Positions 29,830 through 51,146 of a stretch of 51,257 nt of DNA are shown here, in pieces. Position 1 is the first letter of the stretch, and each line of letters opens with the position of its first letter. The position numbers were made by a program, and so were the translations under genes. The notes under the pieces were generated by a model. The model ran no database searches and was not told the origin of the DNA. It saw nothing but the letters and a program-made list of their open reading frames with translations. This DNA comes from Candidatus Nomurabacteria bacterium (GTDB lineage Bacteria > Patescibacteriota > Minisyncoccia > Phycocordibacterales > UBA9973): positions 1 to 51,257 of the forward strand of contig CALRFQ010000005.1 in NCBI GenBank assembly GCA_943356675.1, read 5' to 3'.

Positions 29830-32800
29830 ATGGAATACGAGAAAAAATTTCAAATTAATAAAAAACTGTCCGCAGTTTTAGTTTTTTCATTATTAATTTC
29901 TCCATTATTGCCATTCTCAAATGACTTAAAAATAAACTTTGCTAGCGCTGCGAGTACTCTTCCTCCATACTCTTCCATACTTGACTCAAGCTTGAAGAAC
30001 GCAGATGAATCAGGAGAGGAATCGAGTGTTCCACAAATGACCGACTTCGCCAAGTATGGGACAAAAGTTCTAGGCTGCAACAATAGTGCGGGATTATTTA
30101 GAAAAGCATTATCAGACCTGAATGCTGAAAACGCAGATATTACTTCCTCTGGAACATCTGCTGTTACAGGTAGCTCTGATGAGTCGGCACTAAAAGACAT
30201 GCTATCCTCAGGGGTTGGAGATAATGCTGGTAACGGATCATCAGACGGAACGATAGATTTCGAACTAAATAAATATGGTAATGTAGATGCAGAAATAAAC
30301 TCAGCTAGTGATATCGGAGCAATAGCCTTAACCACTGGTTCTCAGCCTGTAGCTGATGCAGGTGTACTAAAATCTCTTAAGAAACTAAACGATAATCAAA
30401 AAAAGATAATGGAAGACTCTGCCAATAAAAAGGTTTGGGAGCAATGTCTAAATGGTATCGCGGTGAAAATTTCTCAAAAGCAGATTGCATCAATGTCGCA
30501 AGGGATACTAAACTGGGTGAACACAGGCTTCAATGGTGACCCTCTCTTTGTGCGCGACCAAGAGTCATTCTTTAAGAAGATTCAAAACGATAGTCTTCAA
30601 TCATTTATCGCGCCATTCACAGACCCTACAAATGCATCACTATACCCATATGGAAAAAGTACTGCACAAATGCTTGTAAATAATTCGAAAATTACCTTCT
30701 CTGATGTTGCGAAATCAACTCTTCAGGATTCACTACCAGAAGGAGTAACAACAGAGGATTTTAGTAAGGATTTCTCGAAAGGTGGGTGGACTGGGTGGCT
30801 GTCACTCACACAGAATCCTGCGAATAATCCTCTTGGTTTCACGCTCATGGCAAGTGAGGAAGCACTAAAACAAGAGAGTGAAAAAGTGCAAATAAAGAAG
30901 GATGAGTTGTTGCAAGGCAAAGGTTTCCTCTCAGCTACAAAGTGTATAGAGCAATCTTCTCCAGACGGCACAGTTGGGCAAGAGAGTACTTATCGTGAGA
31001 CAGGTAACTCTTTAAACTCTGGCGACCCTACATGTATTCGAACTGAAGTAGTAACACCTGGGTCTATCATTGCCGACCAAGCAAGTGCAGTGCTTACTTC
31101 ACCTATTCGCCAGCTTGAGCTCGCAAAGACAGTGAACGACTCACTCGATCAAGTATTTAATTCTCTCGTAAATCAATTAACAACAAAAGGCTTATCTTCT
31201 CTTGATTCATATGCGAGAGGTTCTGTAACGATGGGAGATGTACCAGCATTAAACATGCTAGAAAAGCCATTTTATGACACTTATTCAAATCTTATAAAAG
31301 TAAACCAAGGATATGGCGGATGGTACCGAAGTGGTGATGATTTCGATATTACAAGAGACTTGGGCGACATATACACACCAGCTTTTGAATATAGAGAAAT
31401 AATAGATCCAGTTAGTGTAATCGCCGGTGGTACTAAAACAGTTAAAATTCCAATTCTCGACGCAAAAGGTAAGCAAAAGAAAATAGTTGCCAAGAAAGGA
31501 ATAATTTCAATACAAGAAGATTATATAATAGCTGCCACAGAATCCTTGAAGGCATTAGATCCTATCCTACCAGCGATAGGTGAGCTTGATTACTGCATCC
31601 CAGGACCAAACCCTTCGTGGGAAACTAGAACTAAAAACAGAATATACGACTTGCAAAATTACCTCTCAAACATGAGTTATAATGGGAAAGAAAGAATATC
31701 GGAGCCTAAGTGGTTGAAGACAGATGCGAACCTTAGTACAGCACAAGGCATTGTATCAGGCCTCGGAGTCGCATTGTCTGGACCAACAGGGGGGATAAGC
31801 TTAGCAGTAGCTGGAATATTTGCAGGTGTAGTTGCTCTGATACATAGTAGCCATGCAAATAAAAATGCAGCAAATGCTGCTGAAATTGAAAGGCAGAATC
31901 TGAAATCTGAATTCTACTTTAATAGCAATCAATCTGGCTTAGTAAACAGTCTTACTACTCGATTCGGACTCTACCAAACCTACATAAAGCAAAGATACAC
32001 GAAAATATTCGGAGGATATGATATCACTGGGGGGACAGAGCCACAATGTAATGACGGGATAGACAATGATAATAATGGTTTGAAAGATTCTGCAGATCCA
32101 GGATGCCATAGTGATCTACATCCAAACAATGCTAGTTCTTGGGATAAAGAAAGGGGTGAGGACAAACCTCAAATGAAATGTAATGACAATAGAAGTGAAA
32201 GTAGTCAGGGGCAGAATACTACAAATGGTGGATTGAATTCATTAACTGTGACTGATAACATGAACCCAGATTGTTACCCTACACTAAGCCCACGGCCAAA
32301 AATAGAACTCAACCGACAAAAATTTGTAGTCCCCAACGGTACAAATGGATTGACGGTAACTACAATTGACCCAAGGTATGTACTCGCTCAGTACATGGGG
32401 CCAGCTAGAACACTCGATCCTATCGCAGATGGATATGATAAATACTTTGATGGATACAAGGCCGGTGTCGCGAGGGAATGTAGCGATGGTATAGAAAATG
32501 ATACAGATGGAGTAAGTGGGGCTCCTGATGGATACACAGATGCACTAGACCCAGGATGCCATACAGATGGAAACAGGAATAATCCTACTACATACAACAG
32601 ATACGGAAATAGTGAATCGAACTCTACTGTATGTAGGAATAACACAGATGATGATGGGGATGGCACAAAAGATATGGGGGATACCGGATGCCATAGTGAC
32701 CTCGATGCAAGTAATATCGCAACATACTTACCATACAGAACAAGTGAAATACACCTAGACGCCACAGTGCAAGCGCAGCTTCCGATGGCAGCTGCTGGGC

Positions 32801-33090
32801 TCAATATAACAAAGGATATAGAAAACTATGATGCCAATATCGCCCAAGCAAAGAAGGATTACAAGACAGAAGTGACTGAGGTAAAGAATAATATTGTAAA
32901 GTTAAAATCAATAAAAACAGAAGTAGACAAAATAATGAAGGATGCACAAGATAGACGAAATGCAAAAATATTTAGTATGAAAAAAGCTGCATTACCCAAC
33001 GAAGTTAATTTCTGCCCGGGAGTAGATCCTGATCCAACATTAACTGCTCAAGTGGATCCAAATGGTAGTACTGGCGGAAGTGTGCAATAA
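29830..33090 (+). CDS. Large exported protein (1086 aa) with ~3 Asp-rich two-Cys repeats and a TM segment
   Basis: Hydrophobic N-terminus; QCNDGIDNDNNGLKDSADPGCHSD, ECSDGIEND..DPGCHTD, VCRNNTDDDGDGTKDMGDTGCHSD. Confidence 0.75.
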   Translation: MEYEKKFQINKKLSAVLVFSLLISPLLPFSNDLKINFASAASTLPPYSSILDSSLKNADESGEESSVPQMTDFAKYGTKVLGCNNSAGLFRKALSDLNAENADITSSGTSAVTGSSDESALKDMLSSGVGDNAGNGSSDGTIDFELNKYGNVDAEINSASDIGAIALTTGSQPVADAGVLKSLKKLNDNQKKIMEDSANKKVWEQCLNGIAVKISQKQIASMSQGILNWVNTGFNGDPLFVRDQESFFKKIQNDSLQSFIAPFTDPTNASLYPYGKSTAQMLVNNSKITFSDVAKSTLQDSLPEGVTTEDFSKDFSKGGWTGWLSLTQNPANNPLGFTLMASEEALKQESEKVQIKKDELLQGKGFLSATKCIEQSSPDGTVGQESTYRETGNSLNSGDPTCIRTEVVTPGSIIADQASAVLTSPIRQLELAKTVNDSLDQVFNSLVNQLTTKGLSSLDSYARGSVTMGDVPALNMLEKPFYDTYSNLIKVNQGYGGWYRSGDDFDITRDLGDIYTPAFEYREIIDPVSVIAGGTKTVKIPILDAKGKQKKIVAKKGIISIQEDYIIAATESLKALDPILPAIGELDYCIPGPNPSWETRTKNRIYDLQNYLSNMSYNGKERISEPKWLKTDANLSTAQGIVSGLGVALSGPTGGISLAVAGIFAGVVALIHSSHANKNAANAAEIERQNLKSEFYFNSNQSGLVNSLTTRFGLYQTYIKQRYTKIFGGYDITGGTEPQCNDGIDNDNNGLKDSADPGCHSDLHPNNASSWDKERGEDKPQMKCNDNRSESSQGQNTTNGGLNSLTVTDNMNPDCYPTLSPRPKIELNRQKFVVPNGTNGLTVTTIDPRYVLAQYMGPARTLDPIADGYDKYFDGYKAGVARECSDGIENDTDGVSGAPDGYTDALDPGCHTDGNRNNPTTYNRYGNSESNSTVCRNNTDDDGDGTKDMGDTGCHSDLDASNIATYLPYRTSEIHLDATVQAQLPMAAAGLNITKDIENYDANIAQAKKDYKTEVTEVKNNIVKLKSIKTEVDKIMKDAQDRRNAKIFSMKKAALPNEVNFCPGVDPDPTLTAQVDPNGSTGGSVQ

Positions 33091-33098
33091 TAAATTAT

Positions 33099-36000
33099 AT
33101 GGAAAGAAACCCAAGAAAAACAAAAGCATTCATAATAACCTTCATCTCAGTGTTGGCATTACTTATCATTGCTTACTTCCTGTTTTTCCGTGGTGACGGC
33201 AAGATTTCTCAAACACTTAGCGGAATACAAAAAACATTCTCACCACTTCTTGGAACCTCAAAACCAAAAGACATTAGTACTGTTACAAATTCTAGCTCTA
33301 CGGGTAGTACAAGTAGTAGTAGCGGAAATGGTGCATCATCTAGTGGCAGTATAGCAGGCACAAGCTCTGGAGCAGGGAATGGGGGGACTCTTGGAGGTGG
33401 TACTACAAAAAATGGTATCAAATATCCTACGCAATGTAGCGATGGGGTAGATAATGATGGCAGAAATGGTATAGATATGGCAGACAGGAGCTGCCACACT
33501 GATGGAAATGCAAACAATATAAATAGTTATAACCCAGAGAGTGCTCTTGAGTACGACTTCTCTACTCTAGGGAATGGGACTACATCAGTACCACAGTGTG
33601 CAGACGGAATAGACAATGATAATAAGAACGGCGCCGATGCAAAAGACAAGAGCTGCCACACTGACGGAAATGCAAATAATACAAAAAGTTATAGTAAAAA
33701 TATATTACTCGAGTTTGATTTCAAAGCTAATGGTAAAAACACGAACAATACACCACAATGTAGTGATGGAGTAGACAACGACGGCAAGAATGGAATAGAT
33801 ATGGCGGATAAGAGCTGCCACACAGATGGAAATGCAAATAATATAAATAGTTATAATCCAGAGAGTGCTCTTGAGTACGACTTCTCTGTGGATGGAAAGT
33901 ATCCTTTATATATTCCGCAATGTAGTGACTGGGTAGATACAAACAAGAATGGAACGAAAAATGTCGGTGATGCTGGAGACAATGATGGAGATGGATTAAT
34001 AGATTCACAAGATCCTGATTGTCATACAGATGGAAATGCAAACAATATAAATAGCTATAATCCCGACAGCGCGTTGGAATACGATTTTCTCTCTGTTTAT
34101 AAAGGTTTGAATACAGAAACTCAATGTAGTGACGGAGCAGACAATGATGGCAATGGGCTCGCTGACACAAAAGATCCAGGATGCTGGAAGGATAGAAATG
34201 ATCCTACTACTTATGATGCAAACGACTCTGTAGAGTTTGATATAAATACAAATGACTATGTTGATGCATGTACTGTGTCACTTATGAAAGCTCAGATTAT
34301 CACAAACCAAGCAGCTATAGACAAACTCGAAGCTGCTGCAGTTCTAGCATACAATAATTCATTCATTATAAAAGCTGGGAAAAGAGGAATCTGGCCAATA
34401 GTGAAGAAGGGTGGAGGTGGTGGTGGACCAGTAAGCATCGGATCAGGACCTGTTACTACAGAATGTAGTGATGCGGCAGATAATGATGGTAATAATCTAA
34501 AAGATGAAAGTGACCCAAGCTGTCATACTGATGGCGACAAATATAATCCTGTATCTTATGATAAAACCATAGCAAAAGAATTCAACATACCTAAGGTTGA
34601 CACAGCTCCAGTGCTTGATTGTGTGGACGGCATAGATAATGATAGGAATGGACTATCAGACGCGAAAGACCCAGGATGCTGGACCAATATGATTGATCCG
34701 AGTACATATAATCTAAATGATAATTATGAAAAAATAGAAATTACTGAATGTAATGACAGTGTCGATAACGACAGTAATGGTGTGATAGATAGCAAAGACC
34801 CAGCATGCTGGACCAATATTAAAGATCCAAAAACATACAACCCAAGTTTGCTTTATGAGAACTTAGTGGGTACATTTACTATTCCTCATGTTCAATATAC
34901 AAAAACTACAGTTACGGTAGTTACAAAGAATGGCACACTCCTCATACCGGTTATCCTTCTTGGAATTTACCCTGGAAATATACTTCCAGTAAGTGACACT
35001 CTAATAAATAATTACTTAAATACGATGGGCTACGACAAACAAGCTGTAGACTCAGATGGCACAGCCTGCTTGATAAATGGAAGAGCTCCGCAATGTAATG
35101 ACTGGGTTGATACAAATAAAAATGGAAGAAAAGACAAGGGTGACAGTGGTGACAATGATGGTGATGGCCTTTTCGATCGCTCAGACCCAGGCTGTCACAT
35201 AGACAATAATCCTATACTTGCGTGGGACAAGACAAAGAATTCTGAAATAGATGGAACAAAAATAATCCACCCTCCTTATGTGCCTGCATGTAGTGATGGG
35301 GTAGACAATGACGGCGATAATCTAACAGATGAGAACGATCCAGGTTGCCATAGTGACCTGAACCCAAATGTAATCCTGTCGTACATACCAAATAAAACTA
35401 GCGAGCTTAATTTCATTCCTCAGTGTCGTGATAGTAAAGATAATGATGCGGATACTCTCGTAGATGACAAGGACCCAGGATGCCACACAGATTTGGACCC
35501 AAATAACGCTGCTTCATATGACCCCAATGCGTATACAGAATTCAATTTCATTCCACAGTGTCGTGATGGCAAGGACAATGACGGCAACAAACTTGCTGAT
35601 GATAAAGATCCAGGATGCTACACAGATCTCAAGATTACAAAGAAAACAGACGGTACTATCGACACTACGAAGTATGACCCAAATAAGGCAATAGAGTTTA
35701 AGTATCTAGCTCAGTGTAGTGATGGTATAGATAATGATGGCAAGAACGGAATAGACTCCGCAGATTTGGGATGCTGGGAGGATAAGACAGATTCAAGTAC
35801 ATATAATCCAGAAGACAATATGGAGGCAGAATTTAGTGGAGGATACACACCACAGTGTAGTGATTTGAAAGACAATGATGGTGATACATTCATAGATGCA
35901 GCAGATCCTACTTGCCACACAGATGGTAATGCAAATAACAACGGACAAGATGCTGCACATCCAAATACTTACGACCCTAAATACTATTCTGAATATGTTA

Positions 36001-37037
36001 ATCCAAACATAATTCCTCCTCCGAATCCTACTCCGTCTATAGCAAGCTGTGTGGATGTGCCACTCACATTCACACCAGAAGAGCAAAGAAGGCTTGATGA
36101 ATTGAAAAGGCAATTCGCATTACTCGCTCCAAAACTTAAAACTGATGCAGATATAATCACTGAAAATGACCAGAAGCAAAGCTATATTGATTTGGTTGCA
36201 AATGTGAAGGCTCTTACAATTCAGTGTTATGACCAGACAAGCCCTAGCAAGTATGCAGGCCCTCTAGACCGCTTGAGTAACCCATACTACAAGTCTCCAA
36301 CTCAAACTTCATTTACTTATGCTTCCACAGAGACTTCAAACATAGACAGTGGCACATGGCTTGGGGATTGGAATTACCTACACTTTGAAATAGATGCAAG
36401 TAAAAAGATTAACTCATACAAACACCTTGGTGATGCTAACGGGAACAGACCTAGATACGGCCTATACGATATAAAGGAAATAATCGATAAAGCAGACAGG
36501 GAAAATAAAATATTCCTAGATCGGAGGGATGTGTATAACTCTGCAATAGGAACGCAAGGTTCACCAACGCTTTCACAATTTAATAATGGAGATTATGTAA
36601 GTAATAAAGATATGGAGGTAGACCCAGCCTTCTCATCTACACCAAAACTAAATACTATATACCAAATAGCAGAAGGATATGTAAACACTATTGGAAATGA
36701 ATATTCTTGTACTCCTAACAAAGTTTCCAAAACTTACGATGAAACTAAACACACCAGCCCAGATAACATAGATGTAGTGTATGTATGCCCATTCCTAGAT
36801 GGATTAAGAAAAATGATTTATGATGAAACTCCTATCATAGTGAATGGTAATATAAGAAGCGGTGCCCATGATGGAGGTAGCTATCAAGTAACTAGTTTAC
36901 AGAAAATTAATGTGAAAGTTCTAAAGAGAATGGTGGACAACCTTGTAATGAAAGTGAAGAATGGTGACCCTTCAAACACAAGTTCTATATATGCATTCCC
37001 ACTTTACGACTTCGAGCAGGTAGTGAAAATCTGGTAA
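33099..37037 (+). CDS. Giant exported repeat protein (1312 aa) with ~14 'CSDGxDNDGxG..D..DPGCHTD' repeats
   Basis: N-terminal TM AFIITFISVLALLIIAYFLFF, Ser/Gly linker, then repeats read directly in the translation. Confidence 0.85.
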   Translation: MERNPRKTKAFIITFISVLALLIIAYFLFFRGDGKISQTLSGIQKTFSPLLGTSKPKDISTVTNSSSTGSTSSSSGNGASSSGSIAGTSSGAGNGGTLGGGTTKNGIKYPTQCSDGVDNDGRNGIDMADRSCHTDGNANNINSYNPESALEYDFSTLGNGTTSVPQCADGIDNDNKNGADAKDKSCHTDGNANNTKSYSKNILLEFDFKANGKNTNNTPQCSDGVDNDGKNGIDMADKSCHTDGNANNINSYNPESALEYDFSVDGKYPLYIPQCSDWVDTNKNGTKNVGDAGDNDGDGLIDSQDPDCHTDGNANNINSYNPDSALEYDFLSVYKGLNTETQCSDGADNDGNGLADTKDPGCWKDRNDPTTYDANDSVEFDINTNDYVDACTVSLMKAQIITNQAAIDKLEAAAVLAYNNSFIIKAGKRGIWPIVKKGGGGGGPVSIGSGPVTTECSDAADNDGNNLKDESDPSCHTDGDKYNPVSYDKTIAKEFNIPKVDTAPVLDCVDGIDNDRNGLSDAKDPGCWTNMIDPSTYNLNDNYEKIEITECNDSVDNDSNGVIDSKDPACWTNIKDPKTYNPSLLYENLVGTFTIPHVQYTKTTVTVVTKNGTLLIPVILLGIYPGNILPVSDTLINNYLNTMGYDKQAVDSDGTACLINGRAPQCNDWVDTNKNGRKDKGDSGDNDGDGLFDRSDPGCHIDNNPILAWDKTKNSEIDGTKIIHPPYVPACSDGVDNDGDNLTDENDPGCHSDLNPNVILSYIPNKTSELNFIPQCRDSKDNDADTLVDDKDPGCHTDLDPNNAASYDPNAYTEFNFIPQCRDGKDNDGNKLADDKDPGCYTDLKITKKTDGTIDTTKYDPNKAIEFKYLAQCSDGIDNDGKNGIDSADLGCWEDKTDSSTYNPEDNMEAEFSGGYTPQCSDLKDNDGDTFIDAADPTCHTDGNANNNGQDAAHPNTYDPKYYSEYVNPNIIPPPNPTPSIASCVDVPLTFTPEEQRRLDELKRQFALLAPKLKTDADIITENDQKQSYIDLVANVKALTIQCYDQTSPSKYAGPLDRLSNPYYKSPTQTSFTYASTETSNIDSGTWLGDWNYLHFEIDASKKINSYKHLGDANGNRPRYGLYDIKEIIDKADRENKIFLDRRDVYNSAIGTQGSPTLSQFNNGDYVSNKDMEVDPAFSSTPKLNTIYQIAEGYVNTIGNEYSCTPNKVSKTYDETKHTSPDNIDVVYVCPFLDGLRKMIYDETPIIVNGNIRSGAHDGGSYQVTSLQKINVKVLKRMVDNLVMKVKNGDPSNTSSIYAFPLYDFEQVVKIW

Positions 37038-37130: not shown

Positions 37131-39437
37131 GTGAAAAAATTCTTGCCATACATCTTCACATTGGTTATCATCGCGAACATCCTCGCGCCTATTTCAGTCG
37201 TATTTTCAAACAATAAAGCTCAAGTGGTGACTCAAAAAGCAGAGGCGGTAGGTGATAATGAACCGACTACTAAAGAAGCAATGGACCAGGCAAAATTAAA
37301 GGAAAAAGAGCTAAATAAAAATGAAGTGACTCCGAGCAATATGAGTCAATCTACAGGAGACAAATACGACACTAGTTTTTTTATTTGTATGCTAGATCCT
37401 AGGCCACATTGGAATGGGGAGCGATCGTGGGCCGCATGTTTTATTGGAGTATTTGATGTAATATTTATTATAACAGCAAAGTTAATGGCCTATGCAGGTA
37501 TGTTTTTCGATTGGACAGTGGGCTACTCACTAGATAGTAACTCCTATAGGTCTACTTTTGTGACGGAAGGGTGGGGTATAGTGAGGGATATGTGTAATGT
37601 ATTCTTTATATTTATACTTTTATATGTTGCATTCTCTACTGTACTAAATCTTCATGGCTTTAAAACAAAAGAAATGATAGTGAATGTAGTTATAATTGGA
37701 CTCTTGATCAACTTCAGCCTATTTGCTACGCATGTCATTATAGACACTTCAAACATTCTAGCTCGAGTATTTTATAATAATGTGGAGGTAAATGTCGGGA
37801 CAAATAGTAATGGTACAAACACAGTAGTTGCAGGAGTGGACACAGGTGTAGATAAAAATCTAACTTCAGATCTAGGTGAGAAGCATCTATCAGCATTATT
37901 AGTAAGTAAAATCAACCCACAAGAGATTCTTACAAATGCTTCTAAATTGGAACCAGGGAGTGCTGGCAGCATAAGTGCTGGTACATTTTTAATTATTTCT
38001 TTCTTGTCTATTGTAATGTGTATTATAGGTACAATAGTTTTCCTATCAGTAGGATTAGTATTTATAGCTAGAGTCATAGGATTATGGCTTGCTATGGTAC
38101 TAGTGCCTCTCACATTCTTCTCATACACAGTGCCAGCACTGCAAGACATAGACATGGTGGGTTGGAAGAAGTGGTGGCCAGAAACTCTCAATCTCGCATT
38201 CCTAGCACCGGTATTCATGTTCTTCTTATATTTGATTATTAAATTCCTTGATACTGGTCTGGGATTATTTAATGCTGGCTCAAAAGATGGTATTCAATGG
38301 CTAATGGGAATAATAATTCCATTCATCTTCCTTATGGTACTACTATGGAAAGCAAAGGGTATTGCGACAAAAATGTCTGGTGAACTCGGTCAGCAAATTA
38401 CTGGTGCCCTCGCAGCTACAGCCGGCCTCGCCCTTGGTGGTGCAGCACTAGGAACAGCATTACTAGGAAGAAAGGTTATTGGACAGACAGTGGCGAGAGC
38501 TTCGAGGGGGGAGACCGCTACACAAAAGTATGAAGCTGGAAAAGCAACTGGTGTAGGTAAGGTGACTGGGTGGGTTGGATCAAAGCTTAAACTAGGAAGA
38601 GTGTTTGGTAACACGAGAGATGCAAATGGTACTATTAACAATGGTATTGGAAGTATATTAAATGAAAGACAAAAGAAAGTAAACGAGATAGAGCATGGCC
38701 GCCATGAATTAGAATCTCTAAAAGAGAAGGCCCACTTGAAAGATGTGTCTGATGAAAATTTGTCAGGTGAAAATATCAAAACCCTAAAAACAACATATAA
38801 TAAAGATAAAAGAGGTGAGATTGAAGCAGATATTCGTAAGGGGGCTAAACCATTAGAAGATGAAAATGGTGTTTCATACGCAGGAGGAGAAAGTGGATTT
38901 AAATCAGCTAATAGAACAGCTTTTGTAAATAAAATGAAGAAAGAGGATGTAGATAGTATGGATATAAATGGAGACCTTACTGATGAAGCAAAAAAGAAAG
39001 TGGAAGACCAGCTTACAGTACAATTTAATGCAGCCCTGAAAATATCTGCTGACAAGGCAAGCGAAGCAGGGTTTACGCATTTGCAAGAGGAAGCAAAGAG
39101 ACAAATTAGCATAGGAGACAGATTAGTTTCAAAATCAAATACTGGAACATACGATGTAAGAAACATTTCACAGAGCAAAACTGATAAAAGAGAAGGTATT
39201 GTAACGAAACTCGGAGTTGGTGCTGTAGCAGGGATTGCTCTAGCTGTTAGAACTGGACTTAAAAAATCTGTAGATGTTAACCATGGTACTGGTCAAGGAA
39301 ATTTCCTAAAAGATTTGAGTCACACTTTTACTGAGGCGATGAAGAGCGCTAAAGTAGATGTAAAAGTTGCTGCACCTCATGGCGGAGGAGATCACGGTGG
39401 AGGGCATGATGACCATGGGGGAGGAGGACATCACTAG
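37131..39437 (+). CDS. VirB6/TrbL-like polytopic T4SS membrane protein with His/Gly-rich C-terminal tail
   Basis: Multiple TM helices in the N-terminal two-thirds, cytoplasmic-like charged C-terminus ending HGGGDHGGGHDDHGGGGHH; adjacent PrgI and VirB4. Confidence 0.7.
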   Translation: MKKFLPYIFTLVIIANILAPISVVFSNNKAQVVTQKAEAVGDNEPTTKEAMDQAKLKEKELNKNEVTPSNMSQSTGDKYDTSFFICMLDPRPHWNGERSWAACFIGVFDVIFIITAKLMAYAGMFFDWTVGYSLDSNSYRSTFVTEGWGIVRDMCNVFFIFILLYVAFSTVLNLHGFKTKEMIVNVVIIGLLINFSLFATHVIIDTSNILARVFYNNVEVNVGTNSNGTNTVVAGVDTGVDKNLTSDLGEKHLSALLVSKINPQEILTNASKLEPGSAGSISAGTFLIISFLSIVMCIIGTIVFLSVGLVFIARVIGLWLAMVLVPLTFFSYTVPALQDIDMVGWKKWWPETLNLAFLAPVFMFFLYLIIKFLDTGLGLFNAGSKDGIQWLMGIIIPFIFLMVLLWKAKGIATKMSGELGQQITGALAATAGLALGGAALGTALLGRKVIGQTVARASRGETATQKYEAGKATGVGKVTGWVGSKLKLGRVFGNTRDANGTINNGIGSILNERQKKVNEIEHGRHELESLKEKAHLKDVSDENLSGENIKTLKTTYNKDKRGEIEADIRKGAKPLEDENGVSYAGGESGFKSANRTAFVNKMKKEDVDSMDINGDLTDEAKKKVEDQLTVQFNAALKISADKASEAGFTHLQEEAKRQISIGDRLVSKSNTGTYDVRNISQSKTDKREGIVTKLGVGAVAGIALAVRTGLKKSVDVNHGTGQGNFLKDLSHTFTEAMKSAKVDVKVAAPHGGGDHGGGHDDHGGGGHH

Positions 39438-40708: not shown

Positions 40709-41110
40709 ATGCAATTCAAAGTACCACAATTTATAGATGTCGAAGACAAACTCTTTGGACCTTTCACATTTAAAGAGTTCGTATATCTAGCTGGTGGAGC
40801 AGGGCTTATCTATGTAATTTATAAATTAGTAATCATATGGATCGCTGTACCACTTATCATAGTAGTAGCGGCATTTTCTGCAGCATTAACATTCTATAAA
40901 ATAAATAATAAACCATTTATCTATTACGTACAGGCAAGCATAACATACGCCCTAAAAAGCAAGCTGTATATATGGAAACAACATTTGAAGAAACCAGAAG
41001 TAGTAAAAGACAAAGTGGCAGAGCAAACAGAAGCACTACCCGCTATGACCACAAGTAGGCTCAAAGATTTGGCATGGAGTTTGGATGTTTTGGATCAGGC
41101 ACACAAGTAG
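40709..41110 (+). CDS. PrgI family (VirB3-like) membrane protein
   Basis: MQFKVPQFIDVEDKLFGPFTFKEFVYLAGG; two TM segments; precedes VirB4. Confidence 0.85.
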   Translation: MQFKVPQFIDVEDKLFGPFTFKEFVYLAGGAGLIYVIYKLVIIWIAVPLIIVVAAFSAALTFYKINNKPFIYYVQASITYALKSKLYIWKQHLKKPEVVKDKVAEQTEALPAMTTSRLKDLAWSLDVLDQAHK

Positions 41111-41853: not shown

Positions 41854-43686
41854 ATGGGAATAATATCAGACATTTTTGGAAAGAAAGGAAATGCTCAGCA
41901 AGGGCACGGCATGATACTTCCTGTACTTCCTGAAGAAATATACAAAGCAGCCACACTTGAGCTTGGTGATATCATCGCACCGTCAGCGCTGCAAATCACA
42001 CCAAAGTCACTAAACTTGGGGGACAAAATTGCTCGTACTTTCTTCGTAATCTCATACCCAAGGTTTCTCACAGACAACTGGTTCTCACCAATTATAAATT
42101 TGGATAAAATTTTCGATGTTGCATTCTTCATACACCCTATAGACACACCAGAAATATTAAAAGCTTTTCAAAACAAAGTGGCGGAGGTTCAGAGCCAGAT
42201 TTCAATCCGTGAATCAAAAGGAATGGTGCGTGACCCAATGCTCGACACTGCATACAATGACCTTGAATCTCTTCGTGATTCTCTTATGCAAGCTCAGGAG
42301 AAAATGTTTGATGTAGGACTATACATCACAATCTATGCAGACAGTGAGATAGATTTATTTAAAATTGAGAGTGAAATAAAGTCTCTCCTTGAGTCCAAGC
42401 TCGTATACCTTAAGCCGGCGCTCTTCCAGCAGGAAGAAGCCTTTAAAAGTGTGATTCCACTAGGCACAGACATACTAGGTATTCACCAGAAGCTAAACAC
42501 AGAGCCTCTTTCATCTGTATTTCCATTCGTATCATTTGACCTTACATCAGACAAAGGAATACTCTATGGTGTGAACCGCCACAATTCAAGTCTTATAATA
42601 TTCGACAGATTCTCTCTTCCAAACTACAACTCTATTACTTTTGCTACATCTGGTGCAGGTAAATCATATGCAACTAAGCTAGAAATCTTGCGCACACTGA
42701 TGTTCGACACAGAAGTAATCGTGATCGACCCTGAAAGAGAATATGAATACCTTTCTGAAGCAGTAGGGGGCAGATACTTCAACATCGCACTTTCATCAGA
42801 TCACCACATAAACCCATTTGACCTTCCACTTCCTTCTGAGGATGAAACTGGCGCAGATGTACTACGAAGTAACACTATAAACCTAGTGGGATTATTCCGC
42901 ATAATGCTCGGAGGTCTTACTCCAGAAGAAGATTCAATCATCGACAGAGCCATTACGGAGACATATGCACTCAAGGACATCACAGCTGAATCAGATTTTA
43001 ATAATATCGAACCGCCACTACTTTCTGATATGGAAATGGTGCTAGCAGGGATGGATGGAAGTGAATCTATAATCCAAAGACTTTCAAAATACACTCGTGG
43101 TAGCTGGGCAACATTCTTAAACCAGCCATCAAATGTGGATATCAACCGCAAATTCGTAGTCTTTTCTGTGCGTGATATGGAGGACGAGCTCAAGCCGGTC
43201 GCTATGTACATAGTCACACACTACATCTGGAATGCAGTTAGGAAGAACATTAAAAAGAGACTCCTAGTGGTGGATGAGGCATGGTGGATGATGAAAAGTG
43301 AAGATACAGCATCTTTCCTATTCTCAATTGCTAAGAGAGGCCGTAAGTACTACCTAGGGCTTGCCACAATCACTCAAGACGTGGGCGACTTTATGAAAAG
43401 CCCATATGGAGTGCCTATTGTGACAAACTCTTCCATCCAGCTACTACTAAAGCAATCTCCATCGACGGTGGACCTGCTCCAAAAGACTTTCAACCTTACA
43501 GATCAAGAGAAATTCCTACTTCTTGAGTGTAATGTGGGGGAGGGCATATTCTTTGCAGGACTCAAGCACGTGGCTGTGAAGACCATCGCATCCTACACTG
43601 AAGACCAAATCATTACTTCTGACCCATCACAAATACTCGCCATAAAGAAAGCTAAGGAGGAGCTAGCGGCGGGAGAGAATAAGTAG
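41854..43686 (+). CDS. VirB4/TraC-like conjugative ATPase
   Basis: Walker A ATSGAGKSYATKLE; VIDPEREYEYL; Walker B RLLVVDEAWWMM; ITQDVGDFM. Confidence 0.9.
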   Translation: MGIISDIFGKKGNAQQGHGMILPVLPEEIYKAATLELGDIIAPSALQITPKSLNLGDKIARTFFVISYPRFLTDNWFSPIINLDKIFDVAFFIHPIDTPEILKAFQNKVAEVQSQISIRESKGMVRDPMLDTAYNDLESLRDSLMQAQEKMFDVGLYITIYADSEIDLFKIESEIKSLLESKLVYLKPALFQQEEAFKSVIPLGTDILGIHQKLNTEPLSSVFPFVSFDLTSDKGILYGVNRHNSSLIIFDRFSLPNYNSITFATSGAGKSYATKLEILRTLMFDTEVIVIDPEREYEYLSEAVGGRYFNIALSSDHHINPFDLPLPSEDETGADVLRSNTINLVGLFRIMLGGLTPEEDSIIDRAITETYALKDITAESDFNNIEPPLLSDMEMVLAGMDGSESIIQRLSKYTRGSWATFLNQPSNVDINRKFVVFSVRDMEDELKPVAMYIVTHYIWNAVRKNIKKRLLVVDEAWWMMKSEDTASFLFSIAKRGRKYYLGLATITQDVGDFMKSPYGVPIVTNSSIQLLLKQSPSTVDLLQKTFNLTDQEKFLLLECNVGEGIFFAGLKHVAVKTIASYTEDQIITSDPSQILAIKKAKEELAAGENK

Positions 43687-44767: not shown

Positions 44768-46627
44768 ATGAAAAAATATATCTTTATCTTAACAATTTTA
44801 TCTTTACTAGTAGGTAATTTTGCTTATGCAAGAATTGATTTAAGCACTGATACAGATAAAGTTGCAGTAAATGATAATATTCTCTCAGTAAAAGTGGATT
44901 TCTTGGCAAATACCGCTCAAATAAATGCACAAAAAATAGTATACACAGGATCTACAAAAACAAGTGCCGGCACAGTACTTCAAGCGGTGTCTGGGTCGAT
45001 ATCTGTAAATTCAACTTCGAACCCAAATGTAAATGGCACAGCAACAATAACAATAAATTTAGATAAAGCAAAACATCCAACAGGTACTACTTTTACATTA
45101 TATTTAGCAGATAATGATGGCTCAAATTTTACTACATCATTTAATACACCGTCATCTTATAAAACTGCTGCGGGTTCTGGCGATTTTTATTATACTACTG
45201 GCTATGATTTAGGTGTAGCATCAAATTATTCTATTTACAAAAATGATATAAACAATAGCTTCTTTAGATTTACCACCTTAGCAGCATGCACCACAGCATG
45301 GCAAAAAGCTATAGATGATATGTATTCAACAGAAGGTATTGGTTACAGTAGAAAAACTATTAAATTTACTGAATGTTTTGAATCAAAAAATTTAATCCCA
45401 GCACTAAATACTTTTATAGGTAAACTTAAAGAATATGGCACATTCTCATCTTCAGTTCCATTTTATTACTATAGTTGGAACCAGTATGATAACACTTGGG
45501 GCGGATCAATAGGCTTTAAAACTAAAGATGCCTGTGATAAAAGAGAGAAACTTGAATTCGGAAAAGGAATAGTGTCACATTGTGCACCGTATAGTATTCC
45601 ACCAAAACAACCAGTGAGTTGGAATGGAAATGCTGTAAATGTAACACCAACCCCAAATACACCATATAAAGATGAGTATAAATTACTTGCCCCAATTCCT
45701 GGACTTACTGAGATAAATAGTACGACTACAATTAGTGACTATTTGAACATAATATTTAAAGTAGGTATCGGGCTCCTTATCGCACTCTCAGTGATAATGC
45801 TTGTCATACACGGCGTTCAATATATGGGCGATGAATCAGTATTCGGCAAGACGGAAGCTATGCACAGCATCCGCGCCACAATAGGAGGGCTACTACTCGC
45901 TCTTGGTGCTTATGCAATATTAAACACGATTAATCCTGATCTGGTAAATGGAAGTTTGAATATTAAGAAATTAAATTTTACAATAACGCCTACTAGTAGT
46001 AACACCTCAACAGGAGCTACATCAACTATGTGTGTAAAATCTGCAAATGATCCAAACCCTGATGACGCAAAAGGTTGGAAAATAGATATTAATGCTTATC
46101 CTCTTATAAGAGATGAATATATTCCAGCGATTGATAAAAATCTACCTCTGGGTGCCCAATACTTGTTAACAGCACATACAATCGCCGAAGGATTTTCTAA
46201 AACAAATGGTAGAGCATACCCAACTCATAATCCAGGTAATATAGGTAATACAGACCCAGCTGGATTACCCCTAGACTGTGGTGATTTTAGTACTATTCCA
46301 CCTGAGGGGAGAAAAGCAGTTTCTAAAAACTCATATTGTTTTAAAAATCTTACTGATGGAATTAATGCACAAGCTAAGCATTTTAGAATAGTAGCTAACA
46401 AAAATGCCACGTCTAAAGAGTCCTCCTATGTAGTAGGTGGAACTTATGCTGAATGTACATTAGGTGGAGTTCCTTATGACGGATCTCTATATCAATACCT
46501 GTGGATTTATGCTGGTGGTGCTAGGTTAGATAATGGTTATGCAAATATTATAATCGGATATTTTGACTCAAAAGGAAAAACAATAACAGCCAGAAGTAAA
46601 ATGTGGGATATTTATAATATAAAATAA
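44768..46627 (+). CDS. Exported protein with VirB2/TrbC-like two-TM segment and C-terminal lysozyme/lytic-enzyme-like domain
   Basis: YLNIIFKVGIGLLIALSVIMLVIHGVQYMGDESVFGKTEAMHSIRATIGGLLLALGAYAILNTINPDLV, then HTIAEGF..THNPGNIGNTD. Confidence 0.65.
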   Translation: MKKYIFILTILSLLVGNFAYARIDLSTDTDKVAVNDNILSVKVDFLANTAQINAQKIVYTGSTKTSAGTVLQAVSGSISVNSTSNPNVNGTATITINLDKAKHPTGTTFTLYLADNDGSNFTTSFNTPSSYKTAAGSGDFYYTTGYDLGVASNYSIYKNDINNSFFRFTTLAACTTAWQKAIDDMYSTEGIGYSRKTIKFTECFESKNLIPALNTFIGKLKEYGTFSSSVPFYYYSWNQYDNTWGGSIGFKTKDACDKREKLEFGKGIVSHCAPYSIPPKQPVSWNGNAVNVTPTPNTPYKDEYKLLAPIPGLTEINSTTTISDYLNIIFKVGIGLLIALSVIMLVIHGVQYMGDESVFGKTEAMHSIRATIGGLLLALGAYAILNTINPDLVNGSLNIKKLNFTITPTSSNTSTGATSTMCVKSANDPNPDDAKGWKIDINAYPLIRDEYIPAIDKNLPLGAQYLLTAHTIAEGFSKTNGRAYPTHNPGNIGNTDPAGLPLDCGDFSTIPPEGRKAVSKNSYCFKNLTDGINAQAKHFRIVANKNATSKESSYVVGGTYAECTLGGVPYDGSLYQYLWIYAGGARLDNGYANIIIGYFDSKGKTITARSKMWDIYNIK

Positions 46628-46628
46628 T

Positions 46629-47885
46629 ATGTCAAAAAAGTTATTAATGTTAATAATAGGGAGCATACTAATCCTAGGAGGGGTAGGGGTCTTCATATAC
46701 TACAAAACTGCTGCCACAACGACTGGAGCAAATACTGCGACGAGTACATTTAAAAGTTTCCTACCATTCGGACTTGGTAATAGCTCTGGCACTACAGCAG
46801 GCGACACTACAAACACAAATACAGTGGGTGGTGACACTACCTCAGGAGTAGGCACAGATGGTGCAGCCCCAAGAGATGTATTAACACAGGTCACTACTTA
46901 TGGAGTAACGGGGGCTAATTCTTTTATGGTTATGAAGGCCACACAACCAGGTGATACAAATACGGCTACTCAAAATGCCTCGGCTATAAAGTTTATTGAG
47001 AAATCAAATGGTCACATTCACCAGATATTTATAGATGATGGTCAGAGTTCAGAAATAGATAATTCTGCAATTCCAAATACTTATGAAGCATTATTTAGCT
47101 CTGCTGGTGATTCTGTGGTGTACAGATACTTAGATGATACAGGGAAGAACATACAGAGCTTCTTAAGTATAGTGGGTATGCCTAGTGGTCAGTACCTACC
47201 AGAAAATGTAATTTCTATTTCTTCCTCGCCAGCAAATTCATCGTTCTTCTATATTACAAAAGATGAAAAAAATAATGCAGTAGGAAACCTCTTCACCCCA
47301 GCGGGAAGTAAGAATGTAAAAGTATTTAAATCTCCATTCTCAGAGTGGAATACCGACTTCACTGGAGCTGAAAATGTATATCTTACAACGAAGCCATCCT
47401 ATAATACAGAGGGTTCTGTATATTCTCTAAACACTAGAACTGGCATATTTACAAAGGTTTTGAGTGGTATTAAAGGCTTAACTACAAAGGTTAATCAGGA
47501 TAATTCTAGAATGATTTACAGTAGTAATGAAGGTAATGGTCCTAAGCTTTATGTGTACAATATCCAAAGTCACGAGATAAAAGATACTGGACTATATAGC
47601 TTCGCAGATAAATGTGTCTTTGCTTTTAATAAGATAGATGCATACTGTGCTATTCCAAACACAAATCCTAAAATCCAAAACCCAGATCTATGGTACCAAG
47701 GACTTGAATCTTATTCAGATTCTATTTTCAAAGTAAATACAAATACTGGCACAATATCTCAAGTTATTGACACAAGCATAAAAGGCGAGATAGATGCTAC
47801 AAATCTATTCCTAGATAAAACAGAGAATAATTTATTCTTCACAAATAAAAAAGATTCCACTCTCTGGAATCTAAACCTAAAATAA
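46629..47885 (+). CDS. Membrane-anchored beta-propeller-like protein (418 aa)
   Basis: N-terminal TM, Thr/Gly-rich linker, repeated beta-blade-like segments. Confidence 0.6.
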   Translation: MSKKLLMLIIGSILILGGVGVFIYYKTAATTTGANTATSTFKSFLPFGLGNSSGTTAGDTTNTNTVGGDTTSGVGTDGAAPRDVLTQVTTYGVTGANSFMVMKATQPGDTNTATQNASAIKFIEKSNGHIHQIFIDDGQSSEIDNSAIPNTYEALFSSAGDSVVYRYLDDTGKNIQSFLSIVGMPSGQYLPENVISISSSPANSSFFYITKDEKNNAVGNLFTPAGSKNVKVFKSPFSEWNTDFTGAENVYLTTKPSYNTEGSVYSLNTRTGIFTKVLSGIKGLTTKVNQDNSRMIYSSNEGNGPKLYVYNIQSHEIKDTGLYSFADKCVFAFNKIDAYCAIPNTNPKIQNPDLWYQGLESYSDSIFKVNTNTGTISQVIDTSIKGEIDATNLFLDKTENNLFFTNKKDSTLWNLNLK

Positions 47886-47920
47886 AAATATAAAATCCCC
47901 GAAAGGGGATTTTATATTTT
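47885..47920. terminator. Bidirectional terminator
   Basis: AAAATATAAAATCCCC gaaa GGGGATTTTATATTTT, 16-bp perfect stem. Confidence 0.85.
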
Positions 47921-48388
47921 ATCGTTATCAAAATTTTCTACAAAGGTAATCACCACTTTTCTATCACGCCCTTCTCCCTTTGATTCAGTCTTAATATCTT
48001 TCATTTGCTCTAGGAACATATGCATCACTCTTCTCTCAAAGGCTGGCATAGGCTCGGCTTCAATACTGCTCTTGAAGTACCTAGCACGCTCTGCAAGCAT
48101 ATGAGCAGTAGCACGAATAGAATCCATATGTTGCTTCTGGTAACCATTCACATCAATTTGTAAGTTCCTAAGTGCCTCTTCTCCATGTTCTTTCTCAGCC
48201 ATTTTCTTCACGAGGTGATTGAATGATTTAAGAGCCTCACCATCACGACCAATAAGGAATCTAGAATCAGGAGTAGAGATAGAACACCAAAGTGTGTCGC
48301 CATCTTCTGTGAAGGTGCATTCATTTATCTTGCATCCTGTAAGAGCGCAAACATTTTCTACGATTGTTTTAATATTTTTTGTATCCAT
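47912..48388 (-). CDS. jag: Jag/KhpB KH-R3H RNA-binding protein
   Basis: FLIGRDGEALKSFNHLV (KH) and R3H-type C-terminus MPAFERRVMHMFL; downstream of yidC. Confidence 0.85.
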   Translation of the reverse strand: MDTKNIKTIVENVCALTGCKINECTFTEDGDTLWCSISTPDSRFLIGRDGEALKSFNHLVKKMAEKEHGEEALRNLQIDVNGYQKQHMDSIRATAHMLAERARYFKSSIEAEPMPAFERRVMHMFLEQMKDIKTESKGEGRDRKVVITFVENFDNDKI

Positions 48389-48391
48389 AAA

Positions 48392-49153
48392 TTAATTCAT
48401 GCGTTCTGCTACTACCTTTCCCACAGGAGTCGGCTTCGCAGGTAATGTTCTTCTAATATACATCTCTTGCAGAATAGTGTAAATATTACTTGTAACCCAA
48501 TAGATGGCTACACCTGCAGAGAATTTGTACGCAATGAAACCAATAAATACTGGGAGGATGTATTTTATGTTTATAGCCATAGAATCTGAGAGTTGTTCTT
48601 GGAAAGTCTGGTCCTCCTTTTTTACATTTGGGTCCTTCTTCGGTAGGGGACTTGCATAATAGCCTTGTAGAAATTGCGATACTCCAGCAAGTATTGCTAG
48701 AACTAGTGAATTACCATGAAGATCTAATACCCCTAGAAACATAGTATGCATACTGGTAGGCATCTGTATGAAGCTATATAAAGGACCTGTCTCAAGTGAA
48801 AGACCCCTCAAGAAAACATAATAAAGTGCAAATATCACTGGGAGCTGAACTAAAACAAGTAAAAGTCCTGAAAATGGATTAATATCATAATCCTTATATA
48901 ATGCAAAGGTTTTTTTAGCTTGTTCTTCTTTGTTTGGGAAGTCAGTCTTTATCTTCTTGAGCATTGGGGCCAGCTCTTTCATTATAATCTGACTCTTAAT
49001 AGACTTCTTGGATAGGGGGTAAAGTATGAATTTAACAAGAATTGTAAGGATAATAATAGCAAAGCCCACATCACCCATAGTGACATTGTTTATTATAAAT
49101 ATTAGAGCGTTATATATTGGCTGATAGAAAACTGTATTCCATAGTGTATGCAT
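48392..49153 (-). CDS. yidC: YidC/Oxa1 membrane protein insertase
   Basis: GDVGFAIIILTILVKFILYPLSKKSIKS; polytopic; canonical gene order. Confidence 0.93.
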   Translation of the reverse strand: MHTLWNTVFYQPIYNALIFIINNVTMGDVGFAIIILTILVKFILYPLSKKSIKSQIIMKELAPMLKKIKTDFPNKEEQAKKTFALYKDYDINPFSGLLLVLVQLPVIFALYYVFLRGLSLETGPLYSFIQMPTSMHTMFLGVLDLHGNSLVLAILAGVSQFLQGYYASPLPKKDPNVKKEDQTFQEQLSDSMAINIKYILPVFIGFIAYKFSAGVAIYWVTSNIYTILQEMYIRRTLPAKPTPVGKVVAERMN

Positions 49154-49194
49154 TCATCTATTGTACACGAGGAATGCATATTTTCAAACTGAAA

Positions 49195-49527
49195 CTATAA
49201 TAAAAGGTTGGCTTTTTTAAGCAAAGATATTACATCACTTGAAATATCCATCGAGCTAACATTTTTAGCTTCTTTTTTGAAGAAAAACACACCCACAGAG
49301 TTAGTTGTATTTAGGGGATAAAGTATTGAATAACCCTTTCTTCTAAGTTTATTTCTATCAACAGCGAGTTTGGCTACTGATTTTGGGGCTACAAAAGCAA
49401 AATGGCTATATAAATCAAGGCTTTTTGGCATATAACGCAAATAAAGAAGGTTCCCGTGTGTGGTTTTACCTTCCTTGAGCACTGTATCAAATAAAGACTT
49501 TGTGACTCTTCTATGCTTTGAGAGCAT
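49195..49527 (-). CDS. rnpA: Ribonuclease P protein component
   Basis: LSKHRRVTKSLFDTVLKEGK..VAPKSVAKLAVDRNKLRRKGY. Confidence 0.88.
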   Translation of the reverse strand: MLSKHRRVTKSLFDTVLKEGKTTHGNLLYLRYMPKSLDLYSHFAFVAPKSVAKLAVDRNKLRRKGYSILYPLNTTNSVGVFFFKKEAKNVSSMDISSDVISLLKKANLLL

Positions 49528-49532
49528 GAAAA

Positions 49533-49667
49533 TTAAATAGCGATCTTTGCGCGACCTTTTTGGCGTCTAGCTTTTAGAACTCTTTTACCATTTGGAGTCT
49601 TAGAACGCACGAGAAATCCGTGTGTTTTAGCTCTTTTTCTCTTATTTGGCTGGTATGTTTGAGACAT
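49533..49667 (-). CDS. rpmH: 50S ribosomal protein L34 (start revised from 49721)
   Basis: [44 protein letters not shown]. Confidence 0.95.
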
Positions 49668-49713
49668 AGGACAAATATATACTAAAACAGGCCATAAAGC
49701 AAGTGTATAGGGG

Positions 49714-49741
49714 TTATCCACCTATTCACAGGTTATTAACA
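49714..49741. promoter_or_regulatory. Cluster of DnaA-box-like 9-mers upstream of dnaA
   Basis: TTATCCACC (49714-49722), CTATTCACA (49722-49730), TTATTAACA (49733-49741). Confidence 0.65.
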
Positions 49742-49783
49742 GGTTAATTAAGATATAGATTATTGCCCTAGGGAAAGAACTTG

Positions 49784-49789
49784 TATAAT
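49784..49789 (+). promoter_or_regulatory. -10 box of dnaA, 7 nt before the ATG
   Basis: TATAAT followed by agtaccc then ATG (49797). Confidence 0.65.
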
Positions 49790-49796
49790 AGTACCC

Positions 49797-51146
49797 ATGA
49801 TACCATTTAAAGACCTCTGGAATAGTTGCTTACTAGATATTGAGGCAAACACATCTCGCGCCAACTTCACAACTTGGTTTAAAAATACATCTATCGTAAA
49901 AGAAGATCAAGGAACTTTATATATTGGTGTACCAAATGAGTTTGTAAAAGACTGGCTCTACAATAAATTTCATAAATTAATAGTGAAGACTCTCATGACA
50001 CACGGGGGAGACATAAGAAGTGTTGAATATATAATAATTAAGTATGAACCTCAAACTACAGCAAAAGAAAATACTCAAATAAAACCTCAAACAAACAAAG
50101 AACTACCTCTTACTGATTTGTATATAAACAAAGAAGATAACTTAAACCCTAAATACACATTTAATTCTTTTATTGTGGGTCCTTTTAATGAGCTTGCATA
50201 TGCTGTGGCACAATCAATCCTAAATAATCCTGGTCACAACTACAATCCATTCTTTGTGTATGGAGGCACAGGGCTTGGTAAAACTCATATGATCCAATCA
50301 ATAGGAAATAGTATAAAAACAAAATACCCAAATAAGAAAATTTTGTATGTAAGCTTAGAGAGGTTCTCTATTGACTATGTGACTTCACTTCAAAATAAAA
50401 CTCCAAACGCCTTCAAAGAGAAATACAGAAAGTATGATGTAATAATAATGGATGACATCCAATTTATCTCAGGTAAAGATAAAACACAAGAAGAACTCTT
50501 TCATTTATTCAACACTCTATATGAAAGCAATAGGCAAATTATCTTTTCTTCAGATAAACACCCAAACTTCATTCAGGGTTTGGAAGAAAGATTACTATCA
50601 AGACTTTCCTCTGGTATGACAGTGCAAATAGTAGAGCCTGATTATGAATCAAGACTTGCTATAATTAAAGCCAAAATAACGCAAAACAACTACCAGCTTG
50701 ATGAAGATGTCATTTCTTATCTTGCAGCCTCTCTGGAGGGCAACATACGCGAATTAGAGGGTAGTCTAAACGCACTCATTGCCCAATCAAATCTAAAAAA
50801 TAAAAGTATTTCTCTTACTGAAGCTAAAGCTTTAATTAAAAACAACATAAAACCAAAAAAAAATGTGGCTATAAAAGAAATAGTGGCTACAATCGCTGAA
50901 TACTACAATATAGAAGAAGCTAGTATTTATGAAAAAACAAGAAGAAAAGAAATAGTAAGAGCTCGACAAGTAATAATGTATATACTCCGCGAAGACTTCA
51001 GTATTTCATACCCACTCATTGGCCAAAAGCTTGGGGGTAAAGATCATACAACAGTAATACACTCACATTTGAAAATTAAAAAAGATTTAATTACAGATCC
51101 GGGGTTAGTTCAAGAGATAGAGAAGATTAGAATCATGTTTAAATAG
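49797..51146 (+). CDS. dnaA: Chromosomal replication initiator DnaA
   Basis: NPFFVYGGTGLGKTHMIQSIG, IIMDDIQFISGKDKTQEELFH, C-terminal IGQKLGGKDHTTVIHSHLKI. Confidence 0.98.
   Translation: MIPFKDLWNSCLLDIEANTSRANFTTWFKNTSIVKEDQGTLYIGVPNEFVKDWLYNKFHKLIVKTLMTHGGDIRSVEYIIIKYEPQTTAKENTQIKPQTNKELPLTDLYINKEDNLNPKYTFNSFIVGPFNELAYAVAQSILNNPGHNYNPFFVYGGTGLGKTHMIQSIGNSIKTKYPNKKILYVSLERFSIDYVTSLQNKTPNAFKEKYRKYDVIIMDDIQFISGKDKTQEELFHLFNTLYESNRQIIFSSDKHPNFIQGLEERLLSRLSSGMTVQIVEPDYESRLAIIKAKITQNNYQLDEDVISYLAASLEGNIRELEGSLNALIAQSNLKNKSISLTEAKALIKNNIKPKKNVAIKEIVATIAEYYNIEEASIYEKTRRKEIVRARQVIMYILREDFSISYPLIGQKLGGKDHTTVIHSHLKIKKDLITDPGLVQEIEKIRIMFK

Follow-up and report, generated by a model that had tools for sequence, protein, structure and literature searches.

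What is the role of a protein with a long array of Asp-rich, cysteine-containing repeats in an ultrasmall bacterium that probably depends on a host, and are the repeats its working part? We analyzed 51,257 nucleotides from Candidatus Nomurabacteria bacterium (the window) that contain such a gene, here called gene A. The initial annotation was right about both the coordinates and the length (1312 amino acids) of this open reading frame (Table 1). Gene A lies between gene B, which encodes a conserved secreted protein of a T4SS cluster, and a gene for a VirB6-like protein. With moderate confidence, and judging from sequence, we favor the view that the product of gene A is associated with the T4SS and anchored in the membrane, and that its extracytoplasmic stalk, made of Ca2+/disulfide beads, is variable.

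The locus bears on how Patescibacteria hold on to their hosts and exchange material with them. The T4SS is essential in the one patescibacterial strain surveyed (PMC11665869). As far as the available portion of the published account goes, neither an adhesin of the PrgB type nor a part that spans the envelope has so far been recognized in the T4SS cluster of Patescibacteria. Gene A is a concrete candidate: it is syntenic, and the surface protein that it would encode varies rapidly around a core that is conserved.

The repeat units and their family

We found exactly 14 two-Cys, Asp-rich units in gene A, where "about 14" had been noted. Twelve of the 14 have C-x18-C spacing and strictly fit C-x-D-x-x-D-N-D-x5-D-x2-D-x2-C. 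This motif appeared in none of 1000 shuffles of the gene A protein, and C-x18-C spacing, observed 12 times, averaged 0.8 occurrences per shuffle. The shuffles rule out chance composition as the source of the units. The units account for 28 of the 34 cysteines of the protein, forming 14 pairs, and the last third (residues ~980-1312) is without repeat. The insertion described earlier in two units is real: it is 14 amino acids long in each and is in the same place, between Cys 275 and 308 and between Cys 666 and 699. These two units (4 and 9) resemble each other (80% amino acid and 77% DNA identity) more than either resembles any other unit, and units 1 and 3 show 79% DNA identity across 162 bases. 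From these two likenesses we conclude that local duplication gave rise to part of the array.

The repeat belongs to a family that has a name. Gene A matched NCBIfam NF033662 (acid_disulf_rpt, acidic double-disulfide repeat) with 244.8 bits (cut-off 41) in 14 stretches; one unit (unit 10, 41.6 bits) exceeded the cut-off alone. Gene A had no match to any Pfam family at E <= 0.1 and none in PHROGs. A tblastn search of phages and plasmids with gene A also gave no matches, a search in which low-complexity filtering may mask relatives. Of 287 genomes sampled across the phylum, 48 had the NF033662 repeat.

There are two forms of this repeat. The four-Cys form has two extra cysteines, one at +14 and one soon after C2; the two-Cys form lacks both. 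The family name implies two disulfides, or four Cys, per unit, and four are common among the best-scoring units from the rest of the phylum. In contrast, the window units lack the second pair: both extra positions are without Cys in 12/12 strict units of gene A and 2/2 in gene B. The window units also differ from four-Cys units in having H, W or Y directly after C2, followed by an aromatic...Glu tail. By sequence, then, the window repeats are a two-cysteine variant of NF033662.

The second pair of cysteines is all-or-none. Among 119 distinct units, 24 had both extra cysteines, 91 had neither, four had only the later one and none had only the earlier one (Fisher p 2e-21, with units within one protein not independent). 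This is expected if the C1-C2 pair forms a self-contained bond. After C2, the two-Cys form usually continues H-T-D-G...aromatic...Glu. The residue directly after C2 is His in 67 of 95 units, and 76 of these tails contain aromatic-x(3-8)-Glu, compared to about 30 in shuffles. The same tail was found at two loci in distant genomes of the phylum.

The repeats are not confined to gene A. The initial annotation described those in gene A correctly and overlooked the three units in the upstream gene B, the known family and the T4SS context. A third open reading frame with one unit lies outside the window, on another contig of the same genome.

Table 1. Coordinates of gene A, gene B, their units and neighboring T4SS genes in the window
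Feature	Coordinates	Strand	Basis
Gene B, 1086 aa, signal peptide, conserved T4SS-cluster protein with three units	29830..33090	+	
Gene B unit, C740-C759	32047..32106	+	
Gene B unit, C884-C910, longer loop	32479..32559	+	
Gene B unit, C935-C954	32632..32691	+	
Gene A, 1312-aa membrane-anchored (predicted) repeat protein of T4SS cluster	33099..37037	+	
Gene A N-terminal signal-anchor helix, residues 11-29	33129..33185	+	hydropathy; N-terminal HMM; kept in orthologs
Unit 1, C113-C132	33435..33494	+	
Unit 2, C167-C186	33597..33656	+	
Unit 3, C221-C240; identity with unit 1 across 25 aa is 92% (aa) and 84% (DNA)	33759..33818	+	
Unit 4, C275-C308, 14-aa insertion (DTNKNGTKNVGDAG)	33921..34022	+	
Unit 5, C343-C362	34125..34184	+	
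Unit 6, C456-C475	34464..34523	+	
Unit 7, C508-C527	34620..34679	+	
Unit 8, C551-C570	34749..34808	+	
Unit 9, C666-C699, 14-aa insertion placed as in unit 4	35094..35195	+	
Unit 10, C731-C750, best NF033662 match, alone over cut-off	35289..35348	+	
Unit 11, C776-C795	35424..35483	+	
Unit 12, C821-C840	35559..35618	+	
Unit 13, C873-C892	35715..35774	+	
Unit 14, C920-C939	35856..35915	+	
Gene A conserved C-terminal core, PLTFT...helical hairpin...QCY...NPYYK...KIW end	36030..37034	+	core HMM; helices predicted
VirB6-like polytopic membrane protein	37131..39437	+	topology and position
PrgI (VirB3-like)	40709..41110	+	PF12666, 34.8 bits, cut-off 27
VirB4 ATPase, CD1110 family	41854..43686	+	NF045971, 366 bits, cut-off 325

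Predicted calcium loops, disulfides and the shape of the array

The initial annotation proposed that in each unit one disulfide closes a Ca2+-binding loop and that the units together form a rigid fibre. The first part is well supported by homology with the C-rich domain of teneurin-4, and the second is not. Teneurins were the significant matches to the unit among solved structures (profile E 1.5e-4 and 7e-4), with the C-rich domain of teneurin-4 closest by sequence, and C1 through C2 of the unit aligned with C838 through C857 of teneurin-4 without a gap. In teneurin-4, C838 and C857 form a disulfide. The domain binds three Ca2+, with D840, D843, N844, D845, D847, D851 and D854 among their ligands, and binding at two of the sites (I and II) matches that in thrombospondin type 3 repeats (PMC9058538). 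These ligands (PDB 7plp) correspond to unit positions +2, +5, +6, +7, +9, +13 and +16, so that within the C-x18-C frame the units have the ligand positions of both site I and site II. Nearly all of 98 distinct C-x18-C units have Asp or Asn at these positions: Asp was present at +13 in 98, at +16 in 97 and at +2 in 92, and Asp or Asn at +9 in 93. The filter that defined these units partly imposed +5 and +7, and did not individually impose +2, +9, +13 or +16.

There are also differences from the animal domain. The teneurin C-rich domain has three disulfides and three Ca2+, whereas each window unit has one Cys pair. Teneurin D856 (+18) is mostly replaced by a non-acidic residue (G, N, S or Q), and the third Ca site and the two extra disulfides are not kept. 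In animals the C-rich domain is single; in this bacterium the units form a tandem array. The homology provides a teneurin-type Ca/disulfide module as a structural model for a repeat that NCBI had only named.

Two other assignments were considered and rejected. Thrombospondin type 3 repeats have Asp-rich Ca loops, as predicted for gene A, but no Pfam family matched gene A at E <= 0.1. The same lack of a Pfam match speaks against dockerin or EF-hand repeats, and the units were modelled with helical turns of 3 residues only. In the search of PDB profiles with the unit, oncomodulin reached only E 0.46.

Could the array nevertheless be a straight, rigid, Ca2+-dependent fibre, as first proposed? Thrombospondin type 3 repeats, which are related, pack continuously around Ca2+. 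In addition, units 1-3 of gene A have a regular 54-aa period, and Ca2+/disulfide modules would suit such a fibre. Over the whole array, however, unit-to-unit spacing ranges from 43 to 68 aa, the linkers differ in length and sequence, and the array is broken around residues 391-455 and 600-665, leaving two gaps of about 65 aa or more. AlphaFold gave the units pLDDT of about 81-93 and the linkers less than 50, indicative of disorder, with pTM 0.30. We therefore regard the rigid fibre as very unlikely. The model suggests instead that the units are well-formed beads with no fixed mutual orientation. A Foldseek search with a gene A model (five units and the core) gave no match in the PDB.

The initial annotation had proposed a check for Dsb-type oxidoreductases. 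In the window's genome we found genes for a DsbA-like protein (membrane-anchored, CPFC) and for VKOR (CTWC), making disulfides outside the membrane plausible. DsbD was not found in this genome. Across the genus, DsbA-like proteins were encoded in 24 of 24 genomes, VKOR in 9 of 24 and DsbD in 1 of 24. VKOR did not track with unit number: it was present in genomes with no units and was not found in those with nine and eight.

The T4SS cluster and variation of gene A among relatives

The window contains a Nomurabacteria-type T4SS cluster, of the MPF_FATA-like kind of Patescibacteria, with VirB4 and PrgI homologues side by side. The cluster adjoins jag, yidC, rnpA and dnaA (47912-51146), i.e., it is near the replication origin. 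The available portion of an account of Patescibacteria T4SS clusters (PMC12102498) describes VirB4, PrgI, VirB6-like and pilin-like genes, next to dnaA in some members, as in the window; it does not describe gene A or its repeats. In genomes of the same genus, the order UvrD-RsmA-U292-B-A-VirB6L-p400-PrgI-p214-VirB4-p334-p619-p418 is the same as far as the contigs reach. This gene order points to a putative association of gene A with the T4SS.

The ends of the gene A protein are kept and the middle is not. Gene A had been called exported; we found a signal-anchor helix near the N terminus and, by hydropathy, no clearly cleaved signal. Orthologs in the genus keep this anchor as well as about 110 residues of C-terminal core, and each of the 18 whose 3' end is intact terminates in [I/V]W. 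Within the core region, conservation is limited to these ~110 residues at its start and a few at its end (core HMM); the helical hairpin is an AlphaFold prediction. In contrast, ortholog length ranges from 269 to 1312 aa, and the middle consists of 0-14 units, Ig-like domains, single units or a low-complexity linker. The zero-unit orthologs (269 and 311 aa) have the low-complexity linker. Based on these results we infer that the repeats are dispensable and exchangeable and that the ends are not.

Unit number is labile between close relatives. In a VirB4+p214 tree, a 9-unit and a 1-unit form are sisters beside a 0-unit form, and the window protein, with its 14 units, is sister to a pair with one unit each. 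Because relatives carry 0 to 9 units in the same protein, compared to 14 in the window, the units look like an adjustable stalk and not like the working part.

In six loci, gene A orthologs have tandem Ig-like units (TISWTSTNTTSCNAGxGNGTGTTGSF) replacing the Asp-rich units, and CLNGATNPPxCT repeats also stand in their place. Short relatives of gene A with no repeats were found at three loci in other Nomurabacteria. At ten loci in other Nomurabacteria genera, the slot between gene B and the VirB6-like gene is occupied by secreted proteins of 428-1287 aa that are FN3/Ig-like (a label read from the sequences). These proteins are unrelated to gene A and share a C-terminal domain that ends YEYYF(K)K. 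In many other genera the gene A slot is empty. Since many relatives have an empty or unrelated slot, gene A is not a universal part of the T4SS.

A proposed variable stalk and its alternatives

How might such a protein work? One N-terminal helix would anchor it in the cytoplasmic membrane with the remainder outside. The conserved ends would do the work: at one end the membrane anchor, at the other the helical core with its terminal -[I/V]W. Between them would lie a spacer of variable length, built here from 14 two-Cys Asp-rich modules. Each module would fold independently around one or two Ca2+ ions, its loop closed by a C1-C2 disulfide made by a DsbA-like/VKOR pathway. Joined by flexible linkers, the modules would form a protease-resistant, beads-on-a-string stalk that sets the C-terminal core away from the membrane, level with the T4SS exit or past it. 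The topology, the stalk role, Ca2+ binding, the disulfide and physical association with the T4SS are putative.

The main rival is that the repeats themselves do the work, as an array of adhesin units that binds the host cell surface and whose unit number alters avidity or specificity. Surface proteins predicted to be adhesins are, along with the T4SS, essential in one cultured patescibacterium (PMC11665869), and the available portion of the cluster account reports no PrgB-type adhesin (PMC12102498). The slot is variable and holds other surface-type proteins in relatives. On the other hand, orthologs in the same genus with no repeat at all still keep both ends, and the same genomes also encode unrelated exported proteins that contain the module, as expected for a generic scaffold. 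We consider an adhesin array unlikely, if worth keeping in mind.

It is also conceivable, by analogy, that gene A is a CagY-like channel or sheath component in which Cys repeats cross-link neighboring subunits and unit number tunes the machine. The two proteins share a plan: a membrane anchor, polymorphic Cys repeats in the middle, a conserved C terminus and a T4SS locus (for CagY, the Cag T4SS of Helicobacter pylori; PMC2581425, PMC10706595). The regular cysteines of the CagY repeats affect multimerisation, and the repeats expand and contract by recombination (PMC2581425). However, CagY repeats are alpha-helical and Lys/Glu-rich (PMC2581425), whereas gene A units are Asp-rich with predicted Ca loops and a Cys pair within the unit. 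Moreover, no VirB10 domain was found in gene A in Pfam or NCBIfam profile searches. Fold and composition differ, CagY is an analogy only, and we think a CagY-like function quite improbable.

In a more elaborate version of the stalk, the gene slot that gene B and the VirB6-like gene enclose would encode a T4SS subunit for host contact, its reach set by the number of Ca-disulfide modules. Gain and loss of repeats would then act as a dial by which evolution fits the stalk to the host envelope or capsule in length, and gene A would be a monoderm-type counterpart, not a homologue, of CagY. We offer this as a speculation and consider it unlikely.

Some of this was known and some appears to be new. 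The repeat family was known by name, and a literature search on the NF033662 repeat found no paper. In the literature searched we found no description of the two-Cys form, of the teneurin-type model or of the setting of a putative labile stalk in a patescibacterial T4SS slot.

Several observations concern other genes of the cluster. Gene B has over 60 homologues in the fetched loci, with invariant W/G/C positions, and a hydrophobic stretch (residues 653-671) precedes its repeats. A model of the gene B core (AlphaFold pLDDT 60, pTM 0.31) gave only chance matches in a structure search. The open reading frame at 44768-46627 specifies a signal peptide, an N-terminal region and a VirB2/pilin-like hydrophobic pair (a weak NF045849 match), and its C-terminal domain has an NPGNIG motif and looks like a cell-wall hydrolase. 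Lastly, orthologs of the 418-aa protein (46629-47885) were matched by the N-terminal profile of gene A (E 3e-8 to 7e-4); perhaps the likeness of the two anchors reflects a shared docking motif.
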